A stretch of 64,000 nt of DNA. Origin: Agrobacterium arsenijevicii (GTDB taxonomy: Bacteria; Pseudomonadota; Alphaproteobacteria; Rhizobiales; Rhizobiaceae). Location: NCBI GenBank assembly GCA_000949895.1, contig JWIT01000004.1:292012-356011 (forward strand), read 5' to 3'. Positions 1-20,749 of the stretch are shown here, one piece after another; the stretch's first letter is position 1; the number at the start of each line of letters is the position of its first letter. The notes under the pieces are model-generated. The model saw only the letters and a list, made by a program, of their open reading frames with translations. It was not told where the DNA came from and did no database searches. Position numbers and translations under genes: made by a program.

Positions 1-852
1 CCGCAGACCCGCGAGCACATCCTGCTCGCTCGCCAGGTTGGCGTTCCGGCAATCGTCGTGTTCCTCAACAAGGTCGACCAGGTTGACGACGCCGAGCTTC
101 TCGAGCTCGTTGAACTGGAAGTTCGCGAACTTCTGTCGTCCTACGACTTCCCGGGCGACGATATCCCGATCGTCAAGGGTTCGGCACTTGCCGCTCTTGA
201 AGATTCCGACAAGAAGATCGGTGAAGACGCAATCCGCGAGCTGATGGCTGCTGTTGACGCCTACATCCCGACGCCTGAGCGTCCGATCGACCAGCCGTTC
301 CTGATGCCGATCGAAGACGTGTTCTCGATCTCTGGCCGTGGTACGGTTGTGACGGGTCGCGTTGAGCGCGGTATCGTCAAGGTTGGTGAAGAAGTCGAGA
401 TCGTCGGCATTCGTCCGACCTCGAAGACGACGGTTACCGGCGTTGAAATGTTCCGCAAGCTGCTCGACCAGGGCCAGGCCGGCGACAACATCGGTGCGCT
501 GGTTCGCGGCGTTACTCGTGACGGCGTTGAGCGTGGTCAGATCCTGTGCAAGCCGGGTTCGGTCAAGCCGCACAAGAAGTTCATGGCAGAAGCCTACATC
601 CTGACGAAGGAAGAAGGCGGCCGTCATACGCCGTTCTTCACGAACTACCGTCCGCAGTTCTACTTCCGTACGACTGACGTGACCGGCATCGTGTCGCTTC
701 CTGAAGGCACGGAAATGGTTATGCCTGGCGACAACGTCACGGTTGAAGTCGAGCTGATCGTTCCGATCGCGATGGAAGAAAAACTGCGCTTCGCTATCCG
801 CGAAGGCGGCCGTACCGTCGGCGCCGGCATCGTGGCCTCGATCGTCGAGTAA
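1..852 (+). CDS. tuf: Elongation factor Tu, 3' part (5' end cut by window edge)
   Basis: EF-Tu delivers aminoacyl-tRNA to the ribosomal A site in a GTP-dependent way. Position 1 is in frame, and aligning with the second copy at 19516 shows that 108 N-terminal codons lie outside the window, so 283 of 391 residues are visible. The visible part starts inside the GTPase domain, includes the G4 motif NKVD, and contains the complete beta-barrel domains 2 and 3, ending at a TAA. It is nearly identical to the copy at 19516-20749; the handful of differences seen by eye are synonymous, which fits gene conversion between duplicate tuf genes. This copy has an uninterrupted frame and is presumably the functional one. 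Confidence 0.98.
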
Positions 853-16832: not shown

Positions 16833-17315
<483 letters not shown>

Positions 17316-17349
17316 TCTTAAACGGTCGCATATCGAAAGGCAGTCCATT

Positions 17350-19449
17350 ATGGCTCGCGAATATAAAATCGAAGACTACCGCAATTTCGGTATCATGGCG
17401 CACATCGACGCCGGCAAGACCACGACCACCGAGCGTATTCTTTATTACACCGGTAAGTCGCACAAGATCGGTGAAGTCCATGATGGCGCTGCCACGATGG
17501 ACTGGATGGAGCAGGAGCAGGAGCGTGGTATCACCATCACCTCCGCTGCGACCACGACCTTCTGGAAGGGTCGCGATGGCAAGATGCGCCGTTTCAACAT
17601 CATCGACACCCCCGGCCACGTCGACTTCACCATTGAAGTCGAGCGTTCGCTGCGCGTTCTCGATGGTGCCATCGCTCTGCTCGACGCCAACGCCGGTGTA
17701 GAGCCGCAGACGGAAACCGTCTGGCGTCAGGCTGAGAAGTACAACGTTCCGCGTATGATCTTCTGCAACAAGATGGACAAGACCGGTGCTGACTTCTACC
17801 GCTCGGTAGAAATGATCAAGACCCGTCTCGGCGCCATCGCCGTTGTCATGCAGCTGCCGATCGGCGCTGAGACCGAGTTCAAGGGCGTTATCGACCTGAT
17901 CGAGATGAATGCTCTCATCTGGCGCGACGAATCGCTCGGCGCTCAGTGGGATGTCGTTGAAATTCCGGAAGATATGAAGGCCAAGGCTGACGAATATCGC
18001 GAAAAGCTGATCGAGACGGTTGTTGAAGTCGACGAACAGGCGATGGAAGACTACCTGAACGGCATCATGCCCGACAACGACAAGATCCGTGCGCTCGTTC
18101 GCCGCGGCACCATCGACGTGAAGTTCCACCCGATGTTCTGCGGTACTGCGTTCAAGAACAAGGGCGTTCAGCCGCTTCTCGACGCCGTCGTTGACTACCT
18201 GCCTTCGCCGCTGGACATCCCGGCGATCAAGGGCATCGACTTCAAGACCGAAGCCGAGATCGAGCGTCATGCCGACGACAGCGAGCCGCTTTCCATGCTC
18301 GCGTTCAAGATCATGAACGACCCCTTCGTTGGTTCGCTGACCTTCGCCCGCATCTACTCCGGCAAGCTCGAAAAGGGCACGTCGGTCATCAACACGGTCA
18401 AGGACAAGCGCGAGCGCGTTGGCCGTATGCTGCAGATGCATTCCAACAGCCGTGAAGACATCGAAGAAGCCTTTGCCGGCGACATCGTTGCTCTGGCTGG
18501 CCTCAAGGAAACCACCACTGGCGATACGCTCTGCGATCCGCTGAAGCCGGTTATCCTCGAGCGCATGGAATTCCCCGAGCCTGTCATCCAGATCGCGATC
18601 GAGCCGAAGACCAAGGGCGACCAGGAAAAGATGGGCCTCGCGCTCAACCGTCTGGCTGCTGAAGATCCTTCGTTCCGCGTCAAGACGGATGAAGAGTCCG
18701 GTCAGACGATCATCGCAGGCATGGGCGAACTTCACCTCGACATCCTCGTTGACCGTATGCGTCGCGAGTTCAAGGTTGAAGCTACCGTCGGTGCTCCGCA
18801 GGTTGCCTACCGCGAAACCATCACGCGTCAGCACGAAGAAGACTACACGCACAAGAAGCAGTCCGGTGGTACCGGTCAGTTCGCTCGCGTGAAGATCATC
18901 TTCGAACCGAACCCTGAAGGCGAAGAATTCAAGTTCGAATCCAAGATCGTCGGTGGTGCTGTTCCGAAGGAATACATCCCGGGCGTTCAGAAGGGTATCG
19001 AAAGCGTTCTGTCTTCCGGTCCGCTCGCTGGCTTCCCGATGCTCGGTGTCAAGGCGACGCTGATCGACGGCGCATACCACGACGTTGACTCCTCGGTTCT
19101 GGCGTTCGAAATCGCATCGCGTGCCTGCTTCCGCGAAGCAGCAAAGAAGGCTGGTGCACAGCTTCTCGAGCCGATGATGAAGGTCGAAGTCGTGACCCCT
19201 GAAGATTACGTCGGTGACGTGATCGGCGATCTGAACTCGCGTCGCGGTCAGATCCAGGGTCAGGAATCGCGTGGCATCACCATCGTGATCAGCGCACACG
19301 TTCCGCTCGCGAACATGTTCAAGTACGTCGACAACCTGCGCTCCATGTCGCAGGGCCGCGCGCAGTACTCGATGACGTTCGATCACTATTCGCCGGTTCC
19401 GTCGAACGTGGCGCAGGAAATCCAGGCAAAGTACTCCGGTCAGAAGTGA
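17350..19449 (+). CDS. fusA: Elongation factor G
   Basis: A 699-residue translocation GTPase. G-motifs are visible: P-loop [12 protein letters not shown] (about residues 17-28), DTPGHVDFT, and NKMDKTGAD. Domains II to V follow with normal spacing, including GGTGQFARV and the C-terminal [16 protein letters not shown]. The ATG at 17350 starts [21 protein letters not shown] single copy of the long, housekeeping type, located between rpsG and tuf. Confidence 0.98.
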
Positions 19450-19515: not shown

Positions 19516-20749
19516 ATGGCAAAGAGCAAGTTTGAGCGCAATAAGCCGCACGTCAACATTGGCACGATCGGTCACGTCGACCACGGCAAGACGTCGTTGA
19601 CTGCTGCGATCACGAAGTATTTCGGCGAGTTCAAGGCGTATGACCAGATCGACGCTGCACCCGAAGAAAAGGCTCGCGGCATCACGATCTCGACGGCTCA
19701 CGTCGAATACGAAACGCCTGCCCGTCACTACGCGCACGTCGACTGCCCCGGCCACGCCGACTACGTGAAGAACATGATCACCGGTGCTGCCCAGATGGAC
19801 GGCGCGATCCTGGTTTGCTCCGCTGCTGACGGCCCGATGCCGCAGACCCGCGAGCACATCCTGCTCGCTCGCCAGGTTGGCGTTCCGGCAATCGTCGTGT
19901 TCCTCAACAAGGTCGACCAGGTTGACGACGCCGAGCTTCTCGAGCTCGTTGAACTGGAAGTTCAACAAGGTTGACCAGGTTGACGACGCCGAGCTTCTCG
20001 AGCTCGTTGAACTGGAAGTTCGCGAACTTCTGTCGTCCTACGACTTCCCGGGCGACGACATTCCGATCGTCAAGGGTTCGGCACTTGCCGCTCTTGAAGA
20101 TTCCGACAAGAAGATCGGTGAAGACGCAATCCGCGAGCTGATGGCCGCTGTTGACGCCTACATCCCGACGCCTGAGCGTCCGATCGACCAGCCGTTCCTG
20201 ATGCCGATCGAAGACGTGTTCTCGATCTCCGGCCGTGGTACGGTTGTGACGGGTCGCGTTGAGCGCGGTATCGTCAAGGTTGGTGAAGAAGTCGAAATCG
20301 TCGGCATTCGTCCGACCTCGAAGACGACGGTTACCGGCGTTGAAATGTTCCGCAAGCTGCTCGACCAGGGCCAGGCCGGCGACAACATCGGTGCACTCGT
20401 TCGCGGCGTTACCCGTGACGGCGTTGAGCGTGGTCAGATCCTGTGCAAGCCGGGTTCGGTCAAGCCGCACAAGAAGTTCATGGCAGAAGCCTACATCCTG
20501 ACGAAGGAAGAGGGCGGCCGTCATACGCCGTTCTTCACGAACTACCGTCCGCAGTTCTACTTCCGTACGACTGACGTGACCGGCATCGTTTCGCTTCCTG
20601 AAGGCACGGAAATGGTTATGCCTGGCGACAACGTCACGGTTGAAGTCGAGCTGATCGTTCCGATCGCGATGGAAGAAAAGCTGCGCTTCGCTATCCGCGA
20701 AGGCGGCCGTACCGTCGGCGCCGGCATCGTTGCCTCGATCGTCGAGTAA
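19516..20749 (+). pseudogene. tuf: Second elongation factor Tu gene, frameshifted by a 58-bp tandem duplication
   Basis: The N-terminal frame encodes EF-Tu from [20 protein letters not shown] through P-loop GHVDHGKT to ELEV, then reads QQG and stops at TGA 19972-19974 (152 residues). The rest of EF-Tu continues in another frame from the second repeat unit to the TAA at 20747-20749. Two 58-bp units (19905-19962 and 19963-20020) differ at one base: C19914 versus T19972, and this T makes the stop codon. Removing one unit restores a normal 391-residue EF-Tu. As sequenced, no complete EF-Tu can be made. The intact copy at the window start would compensate; a sequencing or assembly error is the main alternative. 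Confidence 0.9.
19905..20020 (+). repeat. 58-bp tandem duplication inside tuf
   Basis: Two adjacent 58-nt units with 57 identical positions. The unit encodes [19 protein letters not shown]. Since 58 is not a multiple of three, the frame shifts by one. The other tuf copy (1-852) has one unit only, showing that the single-unit form is ancestral. Confidence 0.97.

Follow-up and report, generated by a model that had tools for sequence, protein, structure and literature searches.

The assembled genome of Agrobacterium arsenijevicii carries a frame-breaking tandem duplication of 58 bases within the fusA-linked gene for elongation factor Tu (tuf), and this raises the question whether the duplication is a real mutation of the strain or a product of the assembly. 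The stretch of DNA under analysis, called here the window, is 64,000 nucleotides long and corresponds to bases 292012-356011 of contig C35 of the assembly (G000), which comprises 74 contigs and 6.3 Mb. Our analysis led, with high confidence, to the answer that the duplication is an assembly artefact, namely the erroneous duplication of a contig overlap, and not a real mutation. The features on which the argument relies are the following.

19516..19974, + strand: 5' part of the fusA-linked tuf, ending at an in-frame TGA, 152 amino acids (list of open reading frames, Pfam GTP_EFTU)
19904..19963, + strand: repeat copy 1, tuf positions 389-448, C at 19914 (pairwise comparison)
19962..20021, + strand: repeat copy 2, tuf positions 389-448, T at 19972; opens the 3' part, which differs from the other copy
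19964..20749, + strand: 3' part of the fusA-linked tuf, open in a separate frame, with the rest of the G domain and domains 2 and 3
1..852, + strand: 3' part of the other tuf copy, tuf positions 325-1176; the first 75 nt of this copy lie outside the window, beyond an N

Positions 19904-19963 match positions 19962-20021 over 60 positions at a period of 58 with a single mismatch (C19914/T19972), which confirmed the 58-bp tandem duplication with one mismatch placed by an earlier note at 19905..20020. The units share a 2-nt overlap (TC), so that three registers are possible for the 58-nt unit. The repeat obtained a Tandem Repeats Finder score of 229, as compared with 50-53 for the five other arrays of the window. 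The gene upstream (17257-19449) was identified as fusA, coding for elongation factor G (TIGR00484, 1111.9 bits). The reading frame opening at 19516 codes for 152 amino acids and stops at the TGA at 19972-19974, in agreement with the previously claimed truncation of EF-Tu to 152 residues, and the downstream portion of tuf lies in another frame that is open as far as the TAA at 20747 (to 20749). Pfam GTP_EFTU was matched by the first piece (3.8e-55), which holds most of the G domain, and the remainder of this domain together with domains 2 and 3 was found in the second piece. The role assigned to the stop-creating T stood only in part: it does give the first stop, but it is not decisive, since the shifted frame holds 15 stops, the one following TGA 19972 being at 19981, and the frame shift alone would meet 14 more and suffices to break the gene. 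In a plasmid collection, the nearest sequences to the repeat region were tuf genes of Rhizobiaceae, and the six best matches covered 242-243 nt of the 301-nt query, as expected of one unit. A scan of named genomes, near records excluded, gave 86-90% protein identity for the best among the matches listed, mostly from Rhizobiaceae.

The state of the other tuf copy bears directly on the question. This copy starts at G000:C35:291936, runs for 75 nt, is interrupted by a single N at G000:C35:292011, one base upstream of the window start, and resumes at tuf position 325, so that 249 nt (tuf positions 76-324) are missing at the N. It contains one unit of the repeat, as had been reported, but in this assembly it is not the intact duplicate that had been described, and no complete tuf gene is present anywhere in the genome as assembled. 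EF-Tu is essential, and at least one of the two copies must therefore be wrong; we infer that the cell carries intact tuf genes. The sequence of a two-contig relative, G036, includes N runs of 20, 91, 1496 and 2266 nt, indicating that N runs are not generally shrunk to one N in these sequence data.

The two tuf copies were compared piecewise, nothing having been joined beforehand. The 5' piece of the fusA-linked copy, first unit included, was identical to the other copy (0 of 199 nt differing over positions 1-75 and 325-448), and from the second unit on (positions 389-1176) 13 of 788 nt differed, all of them synonymous and at third codon positions. The mismatch between the units (C19914/T19972) is the first of these 13 differences and corresponds to tuf position 399; in the normal frame its codon is GTC or GTT, both for valine, and a stop arises only via the shifted frame. 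The duplication (389-448) straddles position 399, where the copies start to diverge, and the N gap (76-324) is flanked on both sides by stretches identical between the copies. The mismatch rather points to two source sequences, a first unit shared with the other copy and a second unit that would be copy-specific. The mismatch had been put forward as an argument against an artefact, and this argument was reversed: a synonymous inter-copy site is what would be expected from the unmerged overlap of two contigs. It counts against the artefact reading that the shared tract cannot be followed through, because the other copy lacks positions 76-324. The divergence between the copies (13 of 788 nt, window positions 65-852 against 19962-20749) was higher than in 12 genomes of the same genus with both copies read, where 0-4 of 1176 nt differed; this is a mild oddity, which perhaps reflects real divergence or a mixed sample.

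The artefact most likely arose as follows. The assembler would have been unable to separate the 5' tract shared by the two tuf copies, the reads presumably being shorter than this tract, and the probable outcome was one shared 5' contig with two copy-specific 3' branches. On the fusA-linked side, a 5' piece that extended to 448 with the other copy's allele would then have been placed directly before a 3' piece that started at 389 with the allele proper to the fusA-linked copy, the 60-nt overlap being left unmerged. At the other locus, a section of the shared tract would have remained as a gap and been written as a single N. Gene conversion between the tuf genes of Salmonella (PMC5485169) and long-lasting concerted evolution of tuf (PMC6053082) have been described. 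Such processes keep the copies near-identical; they explain the likeness of the copies and not the duplication, and near-identity of this origin would explain why short reads fail to separate them.

An unmerged overlap implies adjacent near-identical stretches, alleles from two distinct sources and a location at a repeat left unresolved by the assembly. At this locus, the 60-nt overlap with one mismatch at period 58, the 199 identical nt followed by 13 synonymous differences, and the N in the other copy together with the lack of two full-length tuf matches in 15 of 25 drafts were found. The absence of an N at the junction itself counts against the artefact reading. What is observed is the overlap geometry, the allele pattern and broken tuf sequence, in both copies here and in similar form in other drafts; of the two options raised by the earlier note, the assembly or read error was supported, and neither the mismatch argument nor the intact duplicate stood.

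The distribution of tuf damage was surveyed among 39 genomes of the genus, own genome included, with the full-length tuf of a 6-contig genome (G035) as query; up to 11 candidates per genome were scored, the weakest matches being unlisted. Two full-length tuf matches were found in 13 of the 14 genomes with 9 contigs or fewer and in 10 of the 25 drafts with at least 20 contigs (Fisher p = 0.002, the contig cut having been chosen after the table was seen). The 15 remaining drafts, own genome included, lacked two full-length matches; the 10 with both tuf genes full-length indicate that tuf is not always broken in drafts, which counts against the artefact reading. All 27 tuf copies of the 14 few-contig genomes matched over the full 1176 nt and none had such an insertion. 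The one exception among these genomes, G036 (2 contigs), has a single tuf copy and a run of 1496 N (L238:5240-6735, G036:C1) at the expected start codon; the flank upstream of the other tuf copy aligns as far as the base before the start codon, where the N run begins. A second run, of 2266 N (L238:2052-4317), lies near the first on the same contig and is unexplained. A 16S rRNA search, meant to reveal collapsed repeats elsewhere, had a match in 0 of 5 genomes, few-contig genomes among them, and its control gave matches in 9 of 14; it was uninformative, perhaps because rRNA is lacking from the sequence data or was missed. As a separate observation on the same genomes, the protelomerase family PF16684, a mark of Agrobacterium, was found in 38 of the 39 and in 1 of 14 control genomes, and contigs C6 and C7 of G005 carried eight further matches to this family, mostly partial, besides one on C1.

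Forty tuf loci were fetched from 19 relatives. A frame of 391 amino acids was present in 27 of them, including all 20 of one fetched set, and the remaining 13, all in drafts, were split, truncated at a contig end or repeated. At joins without N, 162 nt of tuf are given twice in a row in G008 and 169 nt in G011; with a single N in between, the same holds for 249 nt in G011 and 66 nt in G027. In G033, a complete frame of 391 amino acids is followed by an N, and the last 98 nt of tuf are then repeated. These four drafts are thus like the window in having a tuf stretch twice at a join, and differ from it in that their five overlaps, 66-249 nt long, are exact, three of the five have an N at the join, and the one in G033 follows a complete frame. 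Only the overlap in the window has a mismatch, which counts against the artefact reading; the case is of the same class as the other draft overlaps without being identical to them. Considered alone, duplicated overlaps occurred in 0 of 14 few-contig genomes and in 5 of 25 drafts (own genome included), a difference that is not significant (p = 0.14).

The earlier note had proposed a comparison with other strains, and the result limits the duplication junction: with at most two mismatches allowed, it was found within tuf in only 1 of the 39 genomes, our own. In G062, a match to the junction with two mismatches lies on a contig other than those of its two tuf genes. The junction pattern is blind to junctions elsewhere in tuf, for which the survey of full-length tuf was used.

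The category of error has a counterpart in the literature. In Kelley and Salzberg 2010 (PMC2864568), 'duplicated overlapping contigs' are a class of erroneous duplications derived from diploid haplotypes: two neighbouring pieces whose ends overlap, each with its own variant, are both retained, and the outcome resembles a recent duplication, as in the present case. That work deals with haplotypes of diploid vertebrates, whereas the variants here would be those of two bacterial tuf paralogs; the overlap here is only 60 nt, and mate pairs were the test used there. No paper describing this tuf locus was recognised in our literature search.

Other parts of the assembly were scanned for comparable damage. 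The scan covered 874,790 nt (13.9%) of the genome, that is, all of C35, 220 kb of C45 and 140 kb of C9, for periods of 20-400 at an identity of at least 95%. No scanned piece was longer than 20 kb, and repeats across piece ends could be missed. The N in the other tuf copy was the sole N in this portion, which also contained two near-identical tandem repeats whose period breaks the frame, the 58-nt repeat in tuf and one of 56 nt. The latter, with one mismatch, is located at G000:C35:436671-436784 (L101:671-784); the gene there has a peptidase M15/DUF882 domain at its C-terminal end, and its counterpart in G035 has one unit and one open frame. We know of no paralog of this gene. Either another overlap left unmerged or a genuine mutation may explain the 56-nt repeat. 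It is compatible with an error-prone assembly, but also with a strain in which short duplications arise readily, and to that extent it counts against the artefact reading. A 24-nt repeat, of in-frame period, was seen in a long reading frame rich in Pro, Glu and Lys (L097:4369-4422, near G000:C35 position 360380). The same scan found nothing in 400 kb of G035, and in 400 kb of G036 only ACGT filler beside an N run, together with the four N runs.

Among the alternatives, a true recent 58-bp tandem duplication would have inactivated the fusA-linked tuf, the other copy being intact in the cell and its N a separate gap; the C in the first unit would then have been acquired from the other copy through gene conversion, unless the T is a new mutation. 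Enterobacteria tolerate the loss of one tuf copy, which counts for this explanation, as does the fact that the sequence is given without an N at the junction. The conversion between tuf copies in Salmonella (PMC5485169) is likewise in its favour. However, it needs in addition a conversion tract or mutation ending where the copies diverge and an independent gap at the other locus, and the 27 of 27 tuf copies of full 1176 nt, without insertion, in genomes with at most 9 contigs stand against it. A true duplication would make the second unit a copy of its neighbour, and the units were found to differ at a site that distinguishes the paralogs. We consider this explanation very unlikely, and it is equally hard to believe that the strain carries a real fusA-linked tuf pseudogene, too recent for gene conversion to have repaired it, and survives with a single tuf gene. 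For a phage-resistant Dickeya tuf mutant (PMC10169776), amino-acid changes are described, not gene loss.

A mixed culture or slightly contaminated sample, in which the 5' and 3' parts would come from different strains, would be an artefact too and appears extremely improbable: the inter-copy divergence of 13 in 788 nt, above the 0-4 of 1176 nt of the 12 other genomes, and an estimated contamination of 1.62% would fit it, but such a value is ordinary (1-4% in relatives of the same genus) and each 3' part appears attached to its own downstream flank, as expected of paralogs. An inherited duplication shared within the genus was rejected on the strength of the junction count in tuf (1 of 39 genomes), and so was a programmed frameshift or functional split EF-Tu, the 152-residue piece stopping inside the G domain, the shifted frame having 15 stops and the relatives having an ordinary frame of 391 amino acids at 27 of 40 tuf loci.

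With the duplication thus read as an unmerged contig overlap, the case matters only as a caution. In this genus, two full-length tuf genes were not recovered in 15 of the 25 assemblies with at least 20 contigs, as against 1 of the 14 with 9 contigs or fewer, and tuf pseudogenes, truncated EF-Tu proteins or tuf copy numbers deduced from such drafts are not trustworthy without reads.
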